NCBI RefSeq assembly: GCF_030408635.1 | Contig: NZ_CP047198.1 | Coordinates: 248,001 to 312,000 of the forward strand | Length of the DNA: 64,000 nucleotides | Direction: 5' to 3' | From: Corynebacterium coyleae | GTDB lineage: Bacteria > Actinomycetota > Actinomycetes > Mycobacteriales > Mycobacteriaceae | Part shown: positions 3,978-38,584 of the stretch, piece after piece | Layout of the letters: each line of letters begins with the position of its first letter | Numbering within the stretch: the stretch's first letter is position 1 | The notes under the pieces: generated by a model | What the model was told of the DNA's origin: nothing | Databases searched by the model: none | What the model saw: only the letters and a program-made list of their open reading frames with translations | Program-made: the position numbers and the translations under genes

Positions 3978-4001
3978 GGTGACCACCCTACGCCCATCTA
4001 C

Positions 4002-5696
4002 CTACGGTTGGGTAAGAAGACTGACGAGAGTGTCGCGAACCTCACGGCGACGAATCTTGCCTGTCTGGTCCCGGTTCAGCTCCTCGAAGTGGTAGAACTC
4101 GCGCGGCACCTTGTAGCGCGTCAGGTGCTTGCGGGCGTAGGCCTTGAGGCCTTCGGGGTCGAGCGCGGCGCCGTCGACAAGTGTGATGCACGCGACAACG
4201 TCCTCGGCGCCATCCTCGCGGGGGCGGCCGACGACTGCGATGTCGTCGATATCCGGATGGCGGCGAAGTACGCCCTCCACCTCGTCCGGGTACACGTTGA
4301 AGCCACCGGTGATGATCATCTCCTTGATGCGCGCCACCAACTTGATCCAGCCGTCCGGCTCCATGACGGCCATGTCGCCGGTGCGGAACCAGCCATCGTG
4401 GAACGCGTTCTCGTTCGCCTCCGGGTTGTTCAAATAGCCTGCGAAGACCTGCGGGCCACGGGCGAGCAGCTCGCCTGGCTCGCCGTCGGACATGGTGCGA
4501 GAGGGGTCGTCCGGGTCAGCGATGCGGATCTCCGTATTGGGGAAGGGGAGACCGATGTAGCCCGGACGACGTGTGCCGTCGAGGGGGTTGCCGGCGAGGA
4601 TCGGCGAGGTTTCCGTCAGGCCGTAGCCTTCGATGAGGCGCCCGCCCGTGGTGTTTTCCCACAGTTCGATCGTCTCTGCAGGCAGGGTGGATGCGCCGGA
4701 GATCGACGTGTGAATCGAGGAAAGGTCGACGTTGTCTTTCTTCGCCCATTCGATGATTTTGGCGTACAGCGTGGGCACGCCCGGCAGCATCGTTGGCCGC
4801 GTTTTCAGGATCGCCGACTGGTACAACTGCGGCTGCGGTGCGGGCACGAGCACGATCTGCCCGCCGACCGTCAGTGGCAGGCCGTAGTTCAACGCAAGGC
4901 CGTAGATGTGGAACATCGGCAGCACGGCGAGCACCTTTTCGCGCACCGCACCCCAGTCCTCCAGCCACTCGATGCCCGCCTTGAGGACCGAGACGATATT
5001 GCGGTGCGACAGTGGCGCACCCTTAGGTTTCCCGGAGGTGCCTGAGGTGTAGAGGATAAAGGCGGTGGTTTCCGGTTCGATCGGTGGCAGGTGCACCGTG
5101 CGAGAACGCGTCCGCAGCAGGTCGGTGAAGTTCATGGTCCCTGGGGCGGGGGTGCTGAGCTCGGCGCGCTTCTTCTTTACCGGCGGGATTGGCAGTGCGA
5201 GCAATGCCTTGAGGTGCGTTGGCATCTCGTCGATCATGTTGACGGCCACAACGGTTTCCAGCGGGGTGCGTCCGCGCAGGGAGAGGAAGGTGTCCGCTTC
5301 ACGGTCGAAGACAATCGCAATCTTCGCTCCGTGGTCGTTGAACTGTGGCTCGAGCTCGTCTGCGGTGTAGAGCGGGTTGTGTTCGACGACGACCGCGCCC
5401 AGCCGCAGGATCGCCGTGACTGCGATGACGTGCTGCGGGCAGTTGGGGAGCGCAACCGCAACGCGGTCCCCAGGCTGGACGCCGAGTTTGACCAAGCCGG
5501 CTGCCGCGCTGCCGACGTGATCGTTGAGCTCGGCGTAGGTGAGCTCCTTGCCCATGAACCACGTTGCGGCGCTGCGCGGTTGGGTGGCCACGGCCCGGTT
5601 GAACCAGCTCACGAGCGTATCTGTGCCGATTTCGGGACGCGGGTTCGTCCATTCGGCGTATTGCTCTATCCAGGCCTGTGTGTCTGCGGCGCCCAT
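4002..5696 (-). CDS. Long-chain fatty acid-CoA ligase, upstream paralogue
   Basis: A 564-residue acyl-CoA ligase with ILYTSGTSGKPKGA, YGLTETSP, GDMAVMEPDGWIKLVARIKE and the C-terminal DQTGKIRRREV lysine region. The frame is open to 5795, but the ATG at 5696 has a good ribosome site (GAGAGGA) and begins at GAADTQAWIEQYAEW, aligning with the neighbouring paralogue. The pair is transcribed leftward, away from the ParA-type ATPase gene. It probably arose by tandem duplication. In mycolic-acid bacteria several FadDs feed lipid synthesis or beta-oxidation; nothing here decides which. The 150-base spacer upstream contains an A+T-rich stretch likely to hold the promoter. Confidence 0.88.
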   Translation of the reverse strand: MGAADTQAWIEQYAEWTNPRPEIGTDTLVSWFNRAVATQPRSAATWFMGKELTYAELNDHVGSAAAGLVKLGVQPGDRVAVALPNCPQHVIAVTAILRLGAVVVEHNPLYTADELEPQFNDHGAKIAIVFDREADTFLSLRGRTPLETVVAVNMIDEMPTHLKALLALPIPPVKKKRAELSTPAPGTMNFTDLLRTRSRTVHLPPIEPETTAFILYTSGTSGKPKGAPLSHRNIVSVLKAGIEWLEDWGAVREKVLAVLPMFHIYGLALNYGLPLTVGGQIVLVPAPQPQLYQSAILKTRPTMLPGVPTLYAKIIEWAKKDNVDLSSIHTSISGASTLPAETIELWENTTGGRLIEGYGLTETSPILAGNPLDGTRRPGYIGLPFPNTEIRIADPDDPSRTMSDGEPGELLARGPQVFAGYLNNPEANENAFHDGWFRTGDMAVMEPDGWIKLVARIKEMIITGGFNVYPDEVEGVLRRHPDIDDIAVVGRPREDGAEDVVACITLVDGAALDPEGLKAYARKHLTRYKVPREFYHFEELNRDQTGKIRRREVRDTLVSLLTQP

Positions 5697-5843
5697 TGCA
5701 TCCTCTCGGTTATGGTCATGTGTAACTAAACGTGTTGCGGAGTATAACTTACCCTTGCGTAGGTTGTGAATGGGTGCGCGCAAGAAATTGATCATCTACA
5801 CTTGCCCGCATCACATATTTGGGGAAATACGGGGGGATTTTTC

Positions 5844-6836
5844 ATGACCACGTTCCATGACGCCACGCTTCGCGACGCTGTTGCCATGCCGGAGCTTGAA
5901 CTCACACCACCTGAGGTGCTCGATCAAACCAACCTGGTGGATCCGGTGAAATCGCCGCCGAAACAGGGCTGGCGCAAAATGATCCACACCGCCACTCGTG
6001 GTCGCATCAACCCGGGCGGTTCGCGCAAAGAACTCGAGGAGCAGCAGCTTATCGACGCCATCCGTGCGCCCCTGCGCGGCGACTACCGCATTGCGGTGAT
6101 GAGCCTGAAAGGTGGCGTCGGTAAGACCACAACCACCGTTGGCCTTGGAGGCGTGTTCGCACAGACCCGTGGGGATCGCGTCATCGCCATCGACGCCAAC
6201 CCGGACCTGGGCACACTTGCCCAACGCGCAGCAACCGCGCCACCGGCCACCATCCGTGACCTGCTCCACGCGCCGGAAACGCACCGCTACCCGCAGGTCA
6301 GTGCCTTTACTAACCAGGCAGCATCGCGGCTCGAGGTGATCGGCTCCGAGCGAGACCCGGCGGTCTCCGAGGCGTTTTCGGAAGCCGACTACCGCCACGC
6401 CATCGACATCCTGCAGCACCACTACAACGTCATTCTCACCGACTGTGGCACCGGCCTGATGCACTCCGCGATGGCGGGCGTGCTCGACCTGGCCAACGCG
6501 CTTGTGCTGGTCACCTCACCTGCTCTCGACGGCGCGCAGTCCGCATCCGCGACCCTCGACTGGCTCAACCTCCACGGCTACGACCAGTTGGCCGCCAACG
6601 CTGTCGTGGTCGTTTCCTCATCCGCACCGGGCAAGCCGACCATCGATATGGGCAAGGTCACCGAACACTTCGCCTCGCGCACGCGGGCGGTGCACACGAT
6701 CCCGTACGACAGGCACTTGGCGGAAGGTGCGGTCGTCGATTTGGAACGCATGGCCCCGGCGACGCTCAAGGCCTACCAGCACCTGGCGGCGACGGTAGCT
6801 GCGGACTTCGGTGCGTGGCACCGGCACGCGTTGTAA
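5844..6836 (+). CDS. MinD/ParA-type P-loop ATPase
   Basis: A 330-residue ATPase of the SIMIBI class. A roughly 80-residue low-homology N-terminal arm precedes the deviant Walker [11 protein letters not shown] (residues 89-98). [13 protein letters not shown] follows as the switch I region, and [16 protein letters not shown] as Walker B. The C-terminal half keeps the [14 protein letters not shown] and [14 protein letters not shown] blocks seen in EspI-like MinD proteins attached to type VII secretion and in CpaE/SepIVA-like ATPases. It stands alone here, without esx genes, so I do not assign a secretion role. The start at ATG 5844 is preferred over an in-frame ATG at 5766 because it is preceded by GGGGGGA. 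Confidence 0.75.
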
Positions 6837-30693: not shown

Positions 30694-30735
30694 CACGGCT
30701 GGGGTCGTGTCGGGTGACGTTCTAAGATGTGGCGC

Positions 30736-31737
30736 ATGGCAGATTTTGAGCTCACCCGACGACCACGGCGCTTGCGGCAGAACCCCGCATTGCGCACCCT
30801 GACGGCGGAGACGAGGCTGCACCCGGCCGACTTCATCCTCCCGCTGTTTATCGCAGACGGCCTTGATGCGCCGCGCGAGATTGCCTCCATGCCGGGGGTG
30901 TACCAGCACACCGAGGATTCCCTGAAGGCAATTTGCCACGAGGCGCTTGAGGCTGGTGTGCGGGCGATCGACCTGTTTGGTGTGCCGCTTGAAGCGGATA
31001 AGGACGCCACAGGCTCCATCGGTGTTTCGGAAGATGGCATTTTGAACCGCGGGATCAAGGCGCTTCGCGACGAATTCGGCGACGACCTGGTCATCATCTC
31101 CGATACGTGCCTTGATGAGTTCACCGATCACGGCCACTGTGGTGTGCTGCGTACCGGTGCACACGGCAACGAAATCGTGGACAACGACAAGACGGTTGAA
31201 ATCTACTGCGACCTCGCCCTGTCCCAGGCGCGCGCTGGCGCGCACATGGTCAGCCCGTCCGGCATGATGGACGGCCAGATCGGCGAGATCCGTAAGGCAC
31301 TCGACCGCGAGGGCTTTGAGGACGTCATCATCATGGCGTACTCCGCGAAGTATGCCTCCAAGTTCTTTGGTCCGTTCCGCGATGCTGTCGGCTCGTCGCT
31401 GAAGGGCGATCGCCGCACCTACCAGCAGGATCCCGCAAACGTGCGCGAGTCCCTTCTGGAGACCGAACTGGACATCGCCGAAGGCGCAGATATTGTCATG
31501 GTCAAGCCGGCCTTGCCGTACCTTGACGTGCTGGCCAAGGTGGCAGAAATGTCACCAGTGCCGGTGGCGGCCTACCAGGTATCCGGCGAGTACGCGATGC
31601 TCAAGGCAGCAGGCGTGAACGGTTGGATCGACTTCGAAGAGACCATGATGGAGTCGCTGGTATCCATTAAACGCGCTGGTGCGGACCAGATTCTGACCTA
31701 CTACGCCATCGAAGCAGCAAAGCAGCTCAATGGTTAG
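30736..31737 (+). CDS. hemB: Porphobilinogen synthase (delta-aminolevulinate dehydratase)
   Basis: Condenses two 5-aminolevulinates to porphobilinogen. The 333 residues carry both Schiff-base lysines, in MAYSAKYASKF and VMVKPALPYLD. The metal loop reads SDTCLDEFTDHGHCGV: zinc enzymes have three cysteines here (C-x-C-x7-C), whereas the middle one is Asp in this protein, so metal use is uncertain and could be magnesium-type. ATG 30736 is preferred to ATG 30727. The 3' end overlaps the next gene by 8 bases. Confidence 0.94.
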   Translation: MADFELTRRPRRLRQNPALRTLTAETRLHPADFILPLFIADGLDAPREIASMPGVYQHTEDSLKAICHEALEAGVRAIDLFGVPLEADKDATGSIGVSEDGILNRGIKALRDEFGDDLVIISDTCLDEFTDHGHCGVLRTGAHGNEIVDNDKTVEIYCDLALSQARAGAHMVSPSGMMDGQIGEIRKALDREGFEDVIIMAYSAKYASKFFGPFRDAVGSSLKGDRRTYQQDPANVRESLLETELDIAEGADIVMVKPALPYLDVLAKVAEMSPVPVAAYQVSGEYAMLKAAGVNGWIDFEETMMESLVSIKRAGADQILTYYAIEAAKQLNG

Positions 31738-32344
31738 CCTCCCGCCACTCAACCCGAAGAGTCCCAGCCACGTCGACGCCAGCGCCGTGGACAAGAAGAC
31801 GCCGGGCGGCCCGCCGGAGGCCGTGCAGTTGATGCTGCGGTGCTGGGCAGTGATGATCGCAGGCGAGTTAATCCACCAGATTCTCTCCGTCGTATTCGCG
31901 TTCGTCGACCCGTCCGCGCTGCGGGACGCCGCCAAGCAACAAGCTAAGCAGCGTGGCGAGGAAATCTCGGACGGCCTAGTCAACATGGGCGTCTACGGAT
32001 CCCTGATCCTCATGACACTCATCCAGTTGGGTGTGCTGCTGTTGTTCGTGTTCGCGCTGCGCGCCGTGCGGAACAAAAGCTCCCAGGCTGGCAACGCGTA
32101 CCGGCTGCTGCAGATCTTCGGGGTGTTCTTCGCCCTCCGCATGATCACGCTGTTCATGATGCAGCCCGCCTCCACCGCCATACCGGTGGTGTTCTACGGC
32201 ATCGACGGTGTCGTCCAAATCATTCTGGGTGTGGCCGGCATTCTGGGCATCATCTACTCCACGGACAAAGACGCCGTGAACTGGGTAGCGCCCAAGAAGG
32301 ATGCGTCGAAGAAAGACGCAGCCAAGACAGAGAAGGAACAGTAG
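31730..32344 (+). CDS. Membrane protein of the haem cluster, unknown function (1)
   Basis: A 204-residue protein with a Pro-rich cytoplasmic head (about 1-30), four hydrophobic segments (about 34-58, 87-108, 123-143, 149-172) and a Lys/Asp-rich tail (KKDASKKDAAKTEKEQ). The start ATG lies inside the end of hemB, so translation is coupled. Similar small membrane proteins follow hemB in mycobacteria (Rv0513/Rv0514 position). No catalytic motif is visible. A role in haem or metal handling is only an inference from location. Confidence 0.7.
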   Translation: MVSLPPLNPKSPSHVDASAVDKKTPGGPPEAVQLMLRCWAVMIAGELIHQILSVVFAFVDPSALRDAAKQQAKQRGEEISDGLVNMGVYGSLILMTLIQLGVLLLFVFALRAVRNKSSQAGNAYRLLQIFGVFFALRMITLFMMQPASTAIPVVFYGIDGVVQIILGVAGILGIIYSTDKDAVNWVAPKKDASKKDAAKTEKEQ

Positions 32345-32351
32345 GTCCCCA

Positions 32352-32873
32352 ATGGCAGGCATGTTCCCCACGATGGTCTCAGACCCGAATGACAAGAACC
32401 GTAGGTACAGCGGCGAGGCCACCGAGCAGTGGCCCCGACCGCTACGTACCGCCTACTACCTGGTGGTTGCCAGTGCGGTGTTGATGATCGTCATCGGGCT
32501 GATGACCCTGGTCAAGGGCGTGCCTGACCGGCTGCCGGATACCTGGATGATCGAAGGTGCCGACGAAGCATTGATCGAACGTTTCCGGTTCAATCTGCGC
32601 ATCTTGGCGTGGGGCAACATCGCCTTGGCCATCCTGCTGTCGATGAGTGCGGCCTACTTCCATAAAGGGTCGAAGACTGCGCGAAGGATTGCAGCCGCAG
32701 GCATTGGGGCAACTGTGTTCCTCAACGTTGCCGGCTTCTTCATCGGCGTGGCTGGCTGGGCCTCCATCGTGGTGGTTATCCTGCTTGTCGCAGCCCTGTT
32801 TGGGATGTTCCGGCCGGCGGCGAATGTGTTCGTCGATACGCGAAGTGGCGACCTGTGGAGGGGAGTTGCGTAA
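32352..32873 (+). CDS. Membrane protein of the haem cluster, unknown function (2)
   Basis: A 173-residue protein with four membrane segments (about 34-54, 84-103, 112-132, 135-152) and a soluble head containing TEQWPRPLRTAYYLV. An external loop between segments 1 and 2 has KGVPDRLPDTWMIEGADEALIERF. ATG 32352 follows the previous stop by 7 bases. Its stop is immediately followed by the GTG of the P-type ATPase homologue, so all three are one operon. No recognisable family. Confidence 0.7.
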   Translation: MAGMFPTMVSDPNDKNRRYSGEATEQWPRPLRTAYYLVVASAVLMIVIGLMTLVKGVPDRLPDTWMIEGADEALIERFRFNLRILAWGNIALAILLSMSAAYFHKGSKTARRIAAAGIGATVFLNVAGFFIGVAGWASIVVVILLVAALFGMFRPAANVFVDTRSGDLWRGVA

Positions 32874-35399
32874 GTGAGCAACCACGAACACCTGGACAAT
32901 TGCATCGAGGAAGCCCGCCACGCCGCACGCCAAGCAGGCATTGACCCGGGCACTGCGACGTGGGACCTGGACGGGGAACTTGTCCGCCCCAACGCCTCCT
33001 ACGCCTTCGAGCTGGAGGGCATTGAGGACGGGCCCCAACTGACCGACATCGCCGAAGCACTTGAGGCGCTGCCAGGTGTGTCGGCGCGCTTGGTGTACCC
33101 GACGAAGATGGCGTGGGTCACCGCACCGGCAAGTACGCCGCTTGTGGAGCTCACCGACACCATCGAAAGCTTCGGCGTCACCGCAACCGTGACCGACTCG
33201 ACCCTGCAGCGTCGCGCACACGGCCGCTACTGGCAGGAACACCCGATGCCGCGCCGGGCGAAGCATCGTCGTAACGAAGAGGCGAACCTGCTCGCCCGTG
33301 CACAAGGGTTCGTGCGCCCGGTGTCGCGCCGCTCCCGCCGTGAAGGCGACGTGCTGTTTACCGCCCGCGACCTAGTCACACCGACGCGCCTTGTGGTGGC
33401 GGTGCTGCTGACCATCCCGGTGCTGCTACTCACCTACATCCCGTCGCTGGACTTCCCGGGCTGGCAGTGGGTGTGCTTCGCGCTGGCCACCCCGGTGGCG
33501 CTGTGGTGCGCATCCCCGTTCCACCGCGCCATGGCAGGCGGCGTGCGTCGCGGTATTTCGGCGCTAGACGGTGCGAGTTCGATCGCCATCCTGGCCTCCT
33601 ATGTGTGGTCGTTTGCCATGCTGCTGTTTACCAGCGTCGGCGACATCGGCTACACCACCACCGGCAGCTGGATGCCACTGCGCATGTCAGACAGCCCCGA
33701 GCTGTATTTCGAAGTGTCCTGCACCGTGACCACGCTGCTGCTATTCGGCAGGTACTTCTCCATGCAGGTGCGCACCGATCTGCGCGAGGAACTCGAATCC
33801 CGCAGGCCCGGCGCCGAGGACGTCTACAACGTGGATCACCGCGACAAACGCGGCACACCCAGCCCCGAAGCGTTGCCTGCAACAGAGATCAGGCGTGGCG
33901 ACGACGTCACGCTCACCGCAGGCCACATCATCCCAGTCGATGGGGAAGTGGTTGGTGGTTCCGGCCGGATTGGTGGGGAGCTCGTCGATACGCACCGCGA
34001 CCAAATCCTCAAAGTCGGCTCGATCGTCACCGCCGGCTCGGTGCTCGCCTCGGGCGAGATCAAAGTCCGCGCCGCGCGCGTCGGCCACACCACACTGCTT
34101 GCGGCGGTGCAGCGCTGGCTTGACGACGCCTCACGTCACCAAAACGCAGCCACCATGGTCTCGACTCGCTCCGCGGGCCTGCTGATCCCAACCGCCTATG
34201 TCATCGCGGTGCTCAACTTCGGACTCTGGCTGCTGTTTAACGGCAACATCAACACGGCCGCTGCGACGTCGCTGGCCATCCTGGTCGTCGTCGCACCCGT
34301 GAGTTTGGCCATCTCACCTGCACTCGCCATGCGCCAAGGCCTCGACTCCGCCGTGCGCCACGGCATGCTTGTGCGCGACGGCAACGCGCTTCGCACCCTG
34401 GCCGACACCGACATGGTCGTCTTCAACCGTGTGGGCACCCTGGTCAAACCGGAAATGCATGTGGAAACCGTCACCGCAGTACGTGGCGAAAGCACTGAAC
34501 TGGTGCTGCGCATCGCCGGCGTCCTGTCTGCCGACTCGGACCACCCGGCCTCCAAAGCAATCGTGAAAGCAGCACGAGGAGCACGCGACGCCCGCTCCGG
34601 CGACCCACGCATCCCAGACTGGATCGAAGCCAACGGTGACACCTTCTCACCCGACGGCGAGTTCGGTGGACCAATTACCGCAACGTGGGGCACTGGTGAA
34701 AACGCACGCTCCGAAACGTTTGCGGCATCGCTGTGGCGCCCGACGAACCTGTCGCAACTCCACGGCAAACTCTCCGTCGCCGCCACGACTGGCGGCACAC
34801 CCGTCGTCGTGCGGTGGGGTGGACGTGACCGCGGCGTGATCACGCTGTACGACCCCGCTAAAGACGACGCCATCCAGGCCATCGACCGCCTGGAATCCAT
34901 GGGTGTGGAAACCGTCATGCTCACCCGCGACACCTACCCGGTGGCGCGCCGGTTCGCTGACTTCCTCGGCATCTCTCAAGTGCTTGCCGGCATTCACGGG
35001 CTGGACAAACCCCATGCTGTGCGTGCACTGCACACACAAGGTTCCAACGTTGCCATGGTTGGCGACGCCTCCGTCCTGCCCACGCTGCGTGTGGCCGACT
35101 CCGGCATCCTGTTCGCCGAAGACGACCTCGCCGGCACCAAAGAGCCACGCTGGAGCGACGACGCCGAAGTCGTTCTCATCCGCGAAGACGTCATGTCCGT
35201 GCCCCAACTCATCGAGCACGCCCAACGCGTTAAACGCATCGCCAACAGCAACCTCGCCTTCGCCGTTGCGTATAACGCCACCGCAGTCGTCCTCGCCGCA
35301 GCTGGAGCGCTGCCACCCGTCGGTGCGACACTGCTCATGCTGGGCAGCTCCCTGTTCATCGAGGCGAAGTCGCGCCGGGCACGCCGGTTCAAGATCTAG
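32874..35399 (+). CDS. Degenerate P1B-type ATPase homologue (predicted pseudoenzyme)
   Basis: An 841-residue protein with the full build of a heavy-metal P-type ATPase: an N-terminal HMA-like domain without CXXC (LEALPGVSARLVYPTKMAW), about eight membrane segments, actuator, P- and N-domains. The catalytic motifs are all lost. DKTGTLT reads NRVGTLV, with Asn518 in place of the phosphorylated Asp. TGES is missing (GGELVDTHRD). The membrane CPC is APV (VVVAPVSLAIS). TGD is TRD (VMLTRDTYP), and GDGIND is GDASVL. The N-domain HP (SDHPASKAIV) remains. The frame is intact over 2.5 kb, so it is maintained. I infer a non-pumping role, such as haem or metal binding, sensing or partner assembly. Confidence 0.85.
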   Translation: MSNHEHLDNCIEEARHAARQAGIDPGTATWDLDGELVRPNASYAFELEGIEDGPQLTDIAEALEALPGVSARLVYPTKMAWVTAPASTPLVELTDTIESFGVTATVTDSTLQRRAHGRYWQEHPMPRRAKHRRNEEANLLARAQGFVRPVSRRSRREGDVLFTARDLVTPTRLVVAVLLTIPVLLLTYIPSLDFPGWQWVCFALATPVALWCASPFHRAMAGGVRRGISALDGASSIAILASYVWSFAMLLFTSVGDIGYTTTGSWMPLRMSDSPELYFEVSCTVTTLLLFGRYFSMQVRTDLREELESRRPGAEDVYNVDHRDKRGTPSPEALPATEIRRGDDVTLTAGHIIPVDGEVVGGSGRIGGELVDTHRDQILKVGSIVTAGSVLASGEIKVRAARVGHTTLLAAVQRWLDDASRHQNAATMVSTRSAGLLIPTAYVIAVLNFGLWLLFNGNINTAAATSLAILVVVAPVSLAISPALAMRQGLDSAVRHGMLVRDGNALRTLADTDMVVFNRVGTLVKPEMHVETVTAVRGESTELVLRIAGVLSADSDHPASKAIVKAARGARDARSGDPRIPDWIEANGDTFSPDGEFGGPITATWGTGENARSETFAASLWRPTNLSQLHGKLSVAATTGGTPVVVRWGGRDRGVITLYDPAKDDAIQAIDRLESMGVETVMLTRDTYPVARRFADFLGISQVLAGIHGLDKPHAVRALHTQGSNVAMVGDASVLPTLRVADSGILFAEDDLAGTKEPRWSDDAEVVLIREDVMSVPQLIEHAQRVKRIANSNLAFAVAYNATAVVLAAAGALPPVGATLLMLGSSLFIEAKSRRARRFKI

Positions 35400-35425: not shown

Positions 35426-36475
35426 ATGACTAGACGCGACCTTGTTAACGCTCCGTTCCTTGAGGCCGCCTATGGCCGCACTCCGTCCCGCACCCCGGTG
35501 TGGTTCATGCGCCAAGCCGGCCGTTCCTTGCCGGAGTACCGCAAGGTGCGAGAAGGCATTGCAATGCTGGATTCGTGCTTCATGCCGGAACTGCTCGCGG
35601 AGATCACGCTGCAGCCGGTGCGCCGCCACGACATGGACGCGGCGATCTTGTTCTCTGACATTGTGGTGCCGCTGAAGGCAGCGGGTGTTGGGGTGGAGAT
35701 CGTGCCGGGTACGGGCCCGGTGCTGGACGCTCCGATTCGCTCCCGTGCGGACGTAGACAACCTGCCGATCCTGGACCACACCGTGGAGGAAGTCGCCGAG
35801 GGGATCCGCATTATTCTCGACGAACTGACCGACACCCAGGCACTCATCGGCTTCGTAGGCGCGCCGTTCACTCTGGCCAGCTACCTCATCGAAGGCGGGC
35901 CGAGCAAGAACCACGAGAAGACCAAGGCGATGATGCACGGCGATCCGGAAACCTGGCACGCGCTCATGCGTCGCCTCGTGCCAACGATCACCGAGTTCCT
36001 CCGCACGCAGGTCGAGGCCGGCATCGACGCGATGCAACTCTTCGACTCCTGGGCAGGCTTCCTCACCGAAGCCGACTACCGCGAGTTTGTCCTGCCGTAC
36101 TCGGTTGAAATCCTGGATTCAGTGGCGGGAGAGATCCCGCGCATCCACTTCGGTGTGGCCACCGGCGAGCTGCTCGGCGCCATGTCTGAGGCAGGCAGCG
36201 AGGTGATGGGTGTGGACTGGCGCGTGCCGCTGGACACCGCCGCTAAGCGTTTCGCCTCCCCGCGCGTGCTGCAGGGCAACCTGGACCCGGCGCTGCTGTT
36301 CGCCGGCACCGATGTCGTGCGCGAGGAGATCGCCCGCATCAAGAACGAGGCCGCCCGCGCGGTCGAAGCGGGGGATGCCACCGGACACATCTTCAACCTG
36401 GGCCACGGCGTCCTGCCGACCACCGATGCGGACGCCATCACTGAGGCCGTACGCATCATCCACGAGGAGATTTAA
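35426..36475 (+). CDS. hemE: Uroporphyrinogen decarboxylase
   Basis: Removes four acetate carboxyls from uroporphyrinogen III to give coproporphyrinogen III. The 349 residues show the N-terminal signature PVWFMRQAGRSLPEYR with the essential Arg pair, the Asp in AAILFSDIVVPL, the GFVGAPFTLASYLIEGG segment and LFDSWAGFL. A short 26-base gap after the ATPase homologue. The hemY start overlaps the stop by one base. Confidence 0.95.
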   Translation: MTRRDLVNAPFLEAAYGRTPSRTPVWFMRQAGRSLPEYRKVREGIAMLDSCFMPELLAEITLQPVRRHDMDAAILFSDIVVPLKAAGVGVEIVPGTGPVLDAPIRSRADVDNLPILDHTVEEVAEGIRIILDELTDTQALIGFVGAPFTLASYLIEGGPSKNHEKTKAMMHGDPETWHALMRRLVPTITEFLRTQVEAGIDAMQLFDSWAGFLTEADYREFVLPYSVEILDSVAGEIPRIHFGVATGELLGAMSEAGSEVMGVDWRVPLDTAAKRFASPRVLQGNLDPALLFAGTDVVREEIARIKNEAARAVEAGDATGHIFNLGHGVLPTTDADAITEAVRIIHEEI

Positions 36476-37854
36476 TGAACATCGCCATTATCGGCGCAGG
36501 CCTTGCCGGTCTGACTGCAGCGTTCGAGCTTCGTAATGCTGATGCGAAAGCCGACGTTTACGAAGCCACTGACCGCATCGGCGGCAAGCTCTACACCGTC
36601 GCGTTCGAGGCTGGCCCGACCGATATGGGCGCCGAGGCATTCCTCGCACGCCGCAAGGACGCAGTCGAGTTCTTCACCGAGTTGGGTCTTGGTGATTCGC
36701 TCGTCGAGCCGTCCGGGTTGCGCTCCCTGATCTGGTCCAATGGCGAGGCCCGCGGTCTGCCTACCGGCGGCGTGATGGGTATCCCGTCTACCTCCGAAAC
36801 GGTTGCGCACTTGGTCAGCGCCGAAACCGCAGCGCGTATCGACGACGAAGCTAACCGCGAAGGTTTCACCTGGGACACCGACGGCGACATGAACGTCGGC
36901 AAACTTGTGCGCGAGCGCTACGGCGACGAAGTCGTCGACGTCATCCTGTCGTCTCTGCTTGGTGGGGTCTACTCCTGTACCGCCGATGACCTGGGCGTTC
37001 GCGCCACCATCCCGCAACTGGCAGAAGAACTCGATCGCCTCGCTGAAGCCGGCGACGGCAAGGTGCACCTGTCTACCGCCGTGGCCAACCTGGAGCGCTC
37101 CCGCGCGGAGCTGCCAACCGGCCAGGGGGCGGTCTTTAACACGTTCCGCGACGGCTACCACGAACTCTACGAAGCCCTCGCGGAGCAGTCCGGGGCGGAC
37201 ATCTACATCGACGCGTTCATCTCGGAGATTCGCCGCGAAGGCAACGGCTTCCGCCTCAAAGGCGGCGAGGACACCGTCTACGACCACGTCATCCTCGCCG
37301 TACCCGCACCGACCGCGGCACTGCTGCTCAAGGAAGTCGCGCCGGAGGCAGCGCAGGAACTGCAGTCGGTGAAGCTGGCCAACTCGGCGGTGGTCGGCAT
37401 GCGGTTTGCCACCGACGAAGGCCTACCGCAGAACTCCGGCGTCCTCGTCGCCACCGGTGCCGACGACGTGAAGGCCAAGGCGTTCACCTTCTCCTCCCGC
37501 AAGTGGCCGCATCTCGCCGAACGTGGCGGCGCCATCGTGCGCGCAAGCTTCGGCCGCTTCGGCGACAACATCGCCCTGACCGCCACCGAAGACGACCTGG
37601 TGGACTGGGCGCTCGACGACCTGAAAACCATCACCGGCTTCGACGGCCGCGAGGCCGGCTTGGAAGAAATCTTCGTCCAGCGCTGGTTCGGTGGCTTGCC
37701 GCGTTTCGACGAACACCACCTCGCCACCGTGGCCAACGTCCGAAACATCATCGACAAGGTTGACGGCATCTCAGTCACCGGCGCCTGGGCGAGCGGCGTG
37801 GGGGTGCCGGCGGTAGTGGCGGACGCGCGCGTCGTCGCCAAGCAACTGCTTTAG
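36475..37854 (+). CDS. hemY: Coproporphyrinogen III / protoporphyrinogen oxidase
   Basis: A 459-residue FAD enzyme. The N-terminal fold is NIAIIGAGLAGLTAAFELRN with the acidic YEATDRIGGKLYT. The C-terminal block SVTGAWASGVGVPAVVADAR closes the FAD site. In actinobacteria this HemY oxidises coproporphyrinogen III to coproporphyrin III in the coproporphyrin-dependent haem route; hemH and hemQ are not in this window. It is the last gene of the hem operon and meets the PIN toxin gene tail to tail with overlapping stops. Confidence 0.92.
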   Translation: MNIAIIGAGLAGLTAAFELRNADAKADVYEATDRIGGKLYTVAFEAGPTDMGAEAFLARRKDAVEFFTELGLGDSLVEPSGLRSLIWSNGEARGLPTGGVMGIPSTSETVAHLVSAETAARIDDEANREGFTWDTDGDMNVGKLVRERYGDEVVDVILSSLLGGVYSCTADDLGVRATIPQLAEELDRLAEAGDGKVHLSTAVANLERSRAELPTGQGAVFNTFRDGYHELYEALAEQSGADIYIDAFISEIRREGNGFRLKGGEDTVYDHVILAVPAPTAALLLKEVAPEAAQELQSVKLANSAVVGMRFATDEGLPQNSGVLVATGADDVKAKAFTFSSRKWPHLAERGGAIVRASFGRFGDNIALTATEDDLVDWALDDLKTITGFDGREAGLEEIFVQRWFGGLPRFDEHHLATVANVRNIIDKVDGISVTGAWASGVGVPAVVADARVVAKQLL

Positions 37855-38273
37855 GCATCCTCCCAGGGGTCGATGACCTCCACACCCGTGCCCTCAAAAT
37901 CCTTGAGGTTACGGGTGGCAAGCGAGGCATCGTGGGCGCGACAAATCGCGGCGATCATCGCATCGGCGTCATGGATCGGGCGACCCATCCTTTTTCGCTC
38001 CACGACGATTTCGCCGAATGCCCAGGCAGCGTCTGTATCAAAAGCAAGGACACCGTTGCGCTGCTCGAAATTAGACAATTGCCAGAAGACAACGTGCTGA
38101 ATTTCGTTCCGTCGGGCACCTGACGGCAAACTCCGAACGCCTCGGACAATCTCGCCGACTGTAATGGAAGTAATGCACTGCTTCGGGTCTGTGGTGGCTG
38201 CCCATCGTTTGACGTTTTCGTGCGGAGCCTTCCGGCAAAGCTCTGAAACAACGTTCGTATCAAGGATGATCAT
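37851..38273 (-). CDS. PIN-domain toxin of a type II toxin-antitoxin pair
   Basis: A 140-residue VapC/FitB-type ribonuclease. The acidic residues of the PIN site are in place: Asp5 in IILDTNVVSEL, Glu in TVGEIVRG, Asp in IHDADAMIAA and the later NLKDFEG. It is expected to cleave a specific RNA, often tRNA, when its antitoxin is degraded. The ATG overlaps the antitoxin stop by 4 bases (ATGA). It lies between hemY and a DedA gene as an insertion in otherwise conserved synteny. Confidence 0.88.
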   Translation of the reverse strand: MIILDTNVVSELCRKAPHENVKRWAATTDPKQCITSITVGEIVRGVRSLPSGARRNEIQHVVFWQLSNFEQRNGVLAFDTDAAWAFGEIVVERKRMGRPIHDADAMIAAICRAHDASLATRNLKDFEGTGVEVIDPWEDA

Positions 38274-38584
38274 GACTGACCACCGCGACGGGCGGTGACC
38301 GCTTCATCCATAACACCGGCGAGGTCATCCATACCTCCCACCTCTTGGGAGAGCTCGAAAAGCTCCAAGCCAGCCTTTACAGGTCGGACTGCTTCTTCCA
38401 GAATATGACGTACCTCTGCCTCCATAGACCGTCCATTCATACTGGCCTGAAGTTTGATCTTGTGGCGCACTCTCTCGTCGACGCCACGGATAGTCAACGT
38501 TACGGTCTTCTCTGGCTTTTCAGCGACCGTGGTCTCAGCCCGACGCGTGATGCGCGTCGCTTTGCTTTTTTGGATAGCGCCCAT
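38270..38584 (-). CDS. Ribbon-helix-helix antitoxin
   Basis: A 104-residue FitA/VapB-like antitoxin. The central segment TVTLTIRGVDERVRHKIKLQASMNGRSMEAEVRHILEEAV is a typical ribbon-helix-helix domain (split here as strand TVTLTIRG, then two helices). The N-terminal 28 residues (KSKATRITRRAETTVAEKPEK) form an unusual basic extension that could touch DNA. The C-terminal 35 residues should wrap the toxin. It probably autoregulates from the A+T-rich gap upstream (38585-38684), which it shares divergently with the DedA gene. Confidence 0.82.
   Translation of the reverse strand: MGAIQKSKATRITRRAETTVAEKPEKTVTLTIRGVDERVRHKIKLQASMNGRSMEAEVRHILEEAVRPVKAGLELFELSQEVGGMDDLAGVMDEAVTARRGGQS

Follow-up and report, generated by a model that had tools for sequence, protein, structure and literature searches.

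The window analysed here, a stretch of 64,000 nucleotides from Corynebacterium coyleae (contig NZ_CP047198.1, positions 248,001 to 312,000), belongs to a genome assembled as one contig of 2.51 Mb. Among its haem genes it carries a gene for a homologue of the P1B-type ATPases, in which the aspartate phosphorylated by active pumps is replaced by asparagine. This protein, here called the pseudopump or simply the pump, is best explained as a member of a genus-wide family of pseudo-P1B-ATPases: a folded, probably non-hydrolysing membrane scaffold or sensor, with a role other than haem-precursor synthesis. We regard this explanation as rather probable. The reading frame opens with GTG and runs to a stop codon at its end without any internal stop; its 841 codons are intact and lie between the gene of a small membrane protein, mem2, and hemE, as the initial annotation of this DNA had stated.

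Family assignment and predicted fold

The pseudopump protein matches the Pfam domains E1-E2_ATPase (PF00122) and Hydrolase (PF00702); the same search returns no HMA domain. Four P-type ATPases are found in the genome with PF00122, the pseudopump being the weakest match (77.3 bits). Among NCBIfam models it falls into the heavy-metal pump group, where, of the models listed, only the general P-type one (TIGR01494) is matched above its cut-off. Homology to P1B pumps spans the A, P and N domains and the membrane core, and the best profile match among solved structures is a CopA, 3rfu_A (291 bits).

The alignment-based AlphaFold (AF2) model features the whole P1B pump fold, with CopA (3rfu and 7r0g) and ATP7B (7xun) as closest structural matches. 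A run without alignment was poor, with a predicted local distance difference test score of 41.4, and was used for the N-terminal domain only: residues 39 to 108, approximately, are predicted to form an HMA-like domain of ferredoxin-like fold, whose loop has no CXXC, in agreement with the initial annotation. By descent, as judged from its sequence, the pseudopump is a P1B homologue; it lacks, however, those defining catalytic features that were tested, and should not carry the name of cation-transporting ATPase.

Replacement of catalytic and metal-site motifs

Orthologues, defined by a match with E of 1.1e-99 or lower, are present in 120 of 151 Corynebacterium genomes; the other 31 give weaker matches only, the best at 5.1e-74. 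The 120 orthologous proteins form the pump alignment, to which the counts given below and in Table 1 refer.

The window protein carries FNRVGTLV at residues 517–524, in place of the DKTGT motif. Asn518 is found in 119 of the 120 aligned proteins; the remaining one, from locus L124, which an assembly gap interrupts, has no residue aligned there, but FNRVGA is found when the second piece of this locus is read separately. Asparagine is thus present in all 120 orthologues and the DKTGT aspartate in none of them, which answers the question, raised by the initial annotation, of whether the replacement is fixed among corynebacterial homologues. For 68 of 80 kept loci the search patterns themselves contained FNR, so that these loci provide no independent test of the asparagine. 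The codon is AAC in 111 sequences and AAT in 8, Arg519 uses five codons, and synonymous codons differ at most of these fixed sites: such variation indicates that the amino acids are held, not merely inherited.

The other motifs are similarly affected. TGES is absent from the window protein, and just 4 of the 120 orthologues have a TGE at any point of the A-domain stretch. The membrane CPC is replaced by APV, within VAPVSL (473–478); at the second cysteine site no orthologue has a cysteine, while 91 have a valine. TGD reads TRD, within LTRD (683–686), its glycine being changed to Arg685 in 119 orthologues. VGDASVL is found at 729–735, where residues 732–734 of GDGxND are replaced. The HMA loop contains no CXXC in any of the 120 orthologues, and CXXC is present anywhere in only one of them, at residue 7. 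In the window protein, all these replacements are as first described. The broader statement, that every catalytic motif had been lost, holds for the most part: Lys712, the proline of CPC (119/120), the histidine of SEHPL and the aspartate of TGD remain.

The pumps were also aligned, leaving out L124, with 28 active paralogues. These were chosen as DKTGT frames (33 of 33 loci had DKTGT; repeats were removed), and Asp and Lys are therefore fixed in the active set by that choice. Compared with this set, the invariant residues specific to the pumps include Arg226, Cys283, Lys397, Trp415 and Arg487, together with Asn518, Arg519, Trp621, Arg685 and Tyr688. Glycines conserved in active relatives at 594, 596 and 621 are lost; the last of them, replaced by tryptophan, is presumably a nucleotide-site residue. 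His217, Tyr800 and Met822 are conserved single residues common to pseudopumps and active relatives, and the membrane-site residues are mostly kept (Tyr800 in 118, Asn801 in 115 and Met822 in 116 of 120). Counted as low-entropy positions, fixation in the pumps is highest in MA-MB (12 of 57) and in the latter half of the P domain (23 of 129).

Distribution and descent in Corynebacterium

All but two of the 120 orthologues are read in one frame. The exceptions are L124, where the assembly gap and a contig end interrupt it, and L125, whose orthologue (4001–6502) falls into three frame pieces in a 77% complete assembly (G078), possibly by an assembly error. The only other flagged frame, that of L036, has a stop two codons before the end of the match.

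The 24 pumps included in a tree with the 28 active paralogues group as a single clade on a long stem. The presence of the pump was also mapped on a tree of hemB and mem1, the latter encoding a second small membrane protein. The locus set used for this tree includes two additional pump-bearing genomes (G220, G321), so that the pump is present in 122 of 153 genomes instead of 120 of 151; three more genomes of the genus were left out (G182 and G311, with strong matches, and G203, with none), as was L027, the second locus of a genome already represented by L125. Three changes explain the presence of the pump, the pump-less groups being a clade of 28 genomes, a pair and one single genome. The tree is midpoint-rooted and the change count cannot itself tell gain from loss; the simplest reading of these sequences is one ancestral gene and three losses, because the pump-less groups sit among pump-bearing ones. 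No pump-like frame is found in the 6.7–10 kb downstream of hemB in the 31 pump-less genomes, where hemE is on the stretch in 30, mem1 in 31 and mem2 in 28.

Outside the genus, the 185 non-Corynebacterium genomes of a 201-genome family search gave no match above 296 bits; the motif was read in 17 matches only (L136 to L152), all of which have DKTGT. The 80 loci kept, of 100 confirmed in a contig search, are all from Corynebacterium.

A plasmid origin was considered and rejected: at least 5000 plasmid records were returned by tblastn, and every one of those returned is below 60% identity, the ten matches listed being at 27–30%. Also rejected was a link to copper pumps, since a CopA-like match (E of 1e-100 or lower) occurs in 150 of the 151 genus genomes and does not track the pseudopump. 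The sole genome without such a match is a 53% complete assembly.

Selection

The ratio of nonsynonymous to synonymous substitution rates (dN/dS) was calculated for 22 close-relative pairs, picked by hand. For the pump, dN/dS ranges from 0.015 to 0.143 (median 0.046): it is below that of mem1 in all 22 pairs and above that of hemB (median 0.030) in 16. On these estimates, the pseudopump is preserved about as strictly as the neighbouring haem enzymes. Such values, far below 1, together with the asparagine present in every orthologue, bear out the conserved pseudopump initially proposed, and refute the alternative of local decay.

Relaxed selection on mem1 and mem2 after loss of the pump was rejected as well: medians are lower, not higher, without the pump (for mem1, a median dN/dS ratio of 0.45 without and 0.91 with it), in a comparison made weak by saturation and by many non-independent pairs.

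Relation to haem genes

Cotranscription of the pump with hemE, as first suggested, is put in doubt by two observations. For C. glutamicum, tabulated data in PMC7337898 assign hemE a start site of its own, 17 bases from an HrrA peak, and an increase of 3.1 log2 units without HrrA; the locus tags given there are cg0516 for hemE, cg0517 for hemY and cg0497 for hemA. The pump need not, therefore, share the control of hemE. In addition, the stretch read in 46 of the 122 pump genomes contains no hemE; contig ends truncate it in several of these genomes. A hemE is found elsewhere in 39 of the 41 of these genomes searched genome-wide, the other five of the 46 being outside that search, which covered two further genomes besides; the gene following the pump is hemL-like in eight of ten hemE-less pump loci read by eye.

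In two genomes, G141 (Corynebacterium sp. MSK041) and G055 (C. meitnerae), hemE is absent genome-wide, by both tblastn and the URO-D profile. G141 gives no match for ALAD or porphobilinogen deaminase and no hemA, with hemL matches of only 27–30%; G055 has no hemA and hemL matches of only 29%, hemC and hemB being kept. G141 is thus without hemA, hemB, hemC, hemE and hemL, and G055 without hemA, hemE and hemL. The pump is intact in both, so that it is not kept only where haem-precursor genes are present.

In G141, in G055 and at the C. tuscaniense locus (L304, where haem gene loss was read at the locus only), hemD, mem1, mem2, pump, hemY and a VTT gene follow in this order on one contig; mem2 of C. 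meitnerae was found by tblastn, the scripted frame being too short for dN/dS. Among these three loci, dN/dS is 0.064–0.084 for the pump and 0.037–0.041 for hemD. L252 (1–12607) and L304 (1–12607) have lost hemA, hemC, hemB, hemE and hemL at this locus, and a similar internal deletion of hemY is found in L252, L304 and L288 (1–12604). The shared deletion suggests that hemE was lost in the common ancestor of these three loci, in which case selection on the pump probably continued after the loss. Being intact, and under purifying selection after the loss of precursor genes, the pump cannot contribute to haem-precursor synthesis in these lineages, and its role probably does not depend on that pathway.

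Both G141 and G055 keep ferrochelatase and cytochrome oxidase; on this gene content, they probably depend on salvaged porphyrin or haem, as naturally occurring auxotrophs for one or the other. The haem- or porphyrin-handling role put forward by the initial annotation is weakened by the persistence of the pump after loss of hemE and other genes, while a role linked to haem uptake or salvage may stay compatible with the data.

A further observation concerns hemD, which encodes a uroporphyrinogen-III synthase-methylase fusion. It is kept, with dN/dS of 0.04, in L252 (2043–3668) and L304 (2066–3691), where the locus has lost hemA, hemB and hemC, though its substrate should be missing.

Proposed role and alternative explanations

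According to the explanation favoured here, the ancestor was a copper-pump-like P1B-ATPase whose motifs for phosphorylation and dephosphorylation, and those of the nucleotide and metal sites, would have disappeared before the Corynebacterium species sampled split from one another; its descendants would have been kept afterwards as a folded membrane protein. No phosphoenzyme should be formed, and hence neither ATP hydrolysis nor pumping would be expected. The old catalytic pocket appears to be relined by the fixed Asn518, Arg519, Arg685, Tyr688 and Trp621; Arg685 and Trp621 probably occupy the vacated sites of phosphate and nucleotide, and the relined residues probably keep the cytosolic domains in a single, E1-like conformation. 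The protein would then work by binding a partner protein or a small ligand, as a membrane scaffold or sensor. More tentatively, the pumps may be an ancestral pseudo-P-type family whose relined pocket is a new functional site, in a scaffold or sensor that has survived the loss of the haem pathway and may act together with HemD and mem1; both of these are kept alongside the pump in the natural haem-pathway losers.

Several observations weigh against this proposal. Lys712 and the aspartate of TGD are retained in 118 and 119 of the 120 pseudopumps, respectively, and the histidine of SEHPL in 110; because of these residues, weak binding of nucleotide or phosphate is possible. In nearly all domains the active set varies less than the pump set, although the two samples differ in breadth. 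The E1-like shape may be a default of AF2, and the "E1 apo" entry 8q73 fits only at 8.9 Å. The pump is absent in three lineages, and hence is dispensable there; moreover, no tested neighbour is present, in the 153 loci, exactly when the pump is.

Sensing, sequestering or moving of haem or porphyrin without ATP, with imported haem being used in non-makers, would fit the position of the pump behind hemB, found in all 119 loci with both genes, and the kept ferrochelatase and cytochrome oxidase of the two hemE-less genomes, which seem to need haem or coproporphyrin. We consider this role unlikely, though worth keeping in mind: the separate start site of C. glutamicum hemE, near an HrrA peak in the tabulated data (PMC7337898), argues against it, as do the pumps kept after loss of hemA, hemB, hemC, hemE and hemL and the 31 of 151 genomes which keep hemB and mem1 without a pump. 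Nor is a haem-ligand pattern evident beyond the single residues Cys283, His217, Tyr800 and Met822, the last three being common to active relatives too. The retained Lys712 (118/120) and SEHPL histidine (110/120) would be accounted for by a switch that binds ATP without hydrolysing it and signals the energy state; Asp-to-Asn mutants of some P-type ATPases do still bind ATP. Such a switch is improbable, however, given the loss of glycines 594 and 596 and the change of the third one to Trp621 in 118 of 120 pumps.

Equally improbable is the reading that the pump forms a membrane complex together with mem1 and mem2. It is favoured by mem1 being upstream on the same strand in all 122 pump loci, and by genes that abut or overlap in the window, but mem2 is undetected beside the pump in 25 of the 122 loci, and mem1 is present in 31, mem2 in 28, of the 31 pump-less genomes. 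These counts do not support the fixed partnership with both small membrane proteins suggested at first; the crude, saturated dN/dS comparison gives no sign of relaxed selection on them without the pump. A still active pump, using another nucleophile or conduit, could be reconciled with the prediction of the whole fold and with the mostly kept Tyr800, Asn801 and Met822; the absence of any fixed Asp or Glu at 515–524, and the loss of TGES, GDGxND and CPC, make it very improbable. Local decay into a pseudogene has a negligible probability and was rejected: most textbook motifs are affected and two of the 120 orthologues (L124, L125) are not in one frame, but the replacement is identical in 120 of 120, dN/dS is below 0.15 in the 22 pairs and frames are otherwise open, L036 alone being flagged besides.

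Gene neighbourhood

Gene order in the window is hemB, mem1, mem2, pseudopump, hemE, all on the forward strand, with genes that abut or overlap: the pseudopump start directly abuts the end of mem2 (32873), and hemE begins 26 bases downstream, at 35426. The order hemB-mem1-pump holds in all 119 loci where hemB and pump were both found. Cotranscription with the upstream genes, also part of the initial annotation, is suggested as far as overlap and strand go (mem1 upstream, on the strand of the pump, in 122 of 122 pump loci). A promoter scan found 2 promoter-like sites versus 1.5 in shuffled sequences, and 10 terminator-like ones versus 6.2; this result was not used.

Behind hemY, the window features a gene for a VTT-domain membrane protein (PF09335, 38685–39503), and this gene still lies beside the pump block at the loci that lost haem-pathway genes. 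On the reverse strand (37851–38584), hemY and the VTT gene are separated by two genes that resemble a VapBC pair by eye: one for a PIN-domain-like ribonuclease and a small one that looks like an antitoxin gene.

Table 1. Features of the pseudopump gene and of its neighbours; positions refer to the window, counts over 120 to the pump alignment.
Feature	Position	Strand	Description
Pseudo-P1B-ATPase gene	32874..35399	+	841 codons; Pfam PF00122, PF00702; orthologues in 120/151 genus genomes
HMA-like domain	32988..33197	+	residues ~39–108; beta-alpha-beta-beta-alpha-beta, predicted (AF2 secondary structure); no CXXC
Cys283, in helix M2	33720..33722	+	120/120 orthologues; Ala in 86% of the 28 active relatives
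A-domain loop replacing TGES	33957..34016	+	variable in sequence and length (120-orthologue alignment)
APV (474–476) replacing membrane CPC	34293..34301	+	first Cys site Ala/Gly in 118/120; Pro in 119/120
NRVGT (518–522) replacing DKTGT	34425..34439	+	Asn, Arg, Gly each in 119/120, one gap
Trp621	34734..34736	+	Trp in 118/120 orthologues; Gly in 28/28 active relatives
TRDTY (684–688) replacing TGD	34923..34937	+	Arg685, Asp686, Tyr688 each in 119/120, one gap
VGDASVLPTL (729–738) replacing VGDGxND	35058..35087	+	alignment with active relatives
hemB	30727..31737	+	upstream neighbour; upstream, same strand in 119/119 pump loci having both
mem1	31730..32344	+	small membrane protein; no Pfam match; present in 153/153 loci, with or without pump
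mem2	32301..32873	+	small membrane protein; weak, sub-cut-off DUF7144 match; detected in 125/153 loci
hemE	35426..36475	+	next gene downstream in the window; in other species at another place or lost

Comparison with known systems

Searches of open-licence PMC papers gave no match for cg0515, which we take to be the C. glutamicum orthologue of the pseudopump, together with the species name, and none for pseudo-ATPase phrases. In the text available from a 2023 review of open P-type questions, no such bacterial family is mentioned (PMC10654040), and the available parts of PMC12327846, PMC7764795 and PMC1382209 name no gene of the locus as a pump.

If the proposed explanation is correct, a P-type fold can be put to another use once its engine is gone, as seen for kinases and other pseudoenzymes. 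By the usual definition, a P-type ATPase is one with a phosphorylated aspartate, and a genus-wide family fixed for its absence would be a testable exception. C. glutamicum is tractable, and the natural haem-gene losers separate the role of the pump from haem synthesis. The family is also a warning for annotation, automatic pipelines being likely to label the pseudopump a cation pump.

To the CopA-type Cu(I) P1B-ATPases the pseudopump is alike in profile and structural match over the A, P and N domains and the membrane core; it differs from them by having no phosphorylatable aspartate, TGES, CPC or CXXC, and altered TGD and GDGxND. One of the other three P-type ATPases of the window genome is a CopA in which, read by eye, the full set of these motifs is present; its gene lies behind a CopZ-like one. 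A P-type fold is also common to the pseudopump and KdpB of the KdpFABC system. KdpB, a P1A-type subunit complexed with other membrane proteins, keeps DKTGT. HemX, the membrane regulator of HemA in Bacillota, has an unrelated fold. It resembles the pseudopump in being a membrane protein coded among hem genes (PMC10991733); the pseudopump, in contrast, persists in genomes without detected hemA. The nearest published parallel found is human TMEM94/ERMA, also of P-type-like architecture without TGES: according to the available text of PMC12134183, a phosphorylation site had been proposed at Asp417 and the solved structure argued against a phosphorylation cycle and against counting the protein among the P-type ATPases, while PMC13322241, as far as its available text goes, disputes the status of the protein. 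Set beside these systems, the pseudopump resembles in its working a pseudoenzyme built on the P-type fold.
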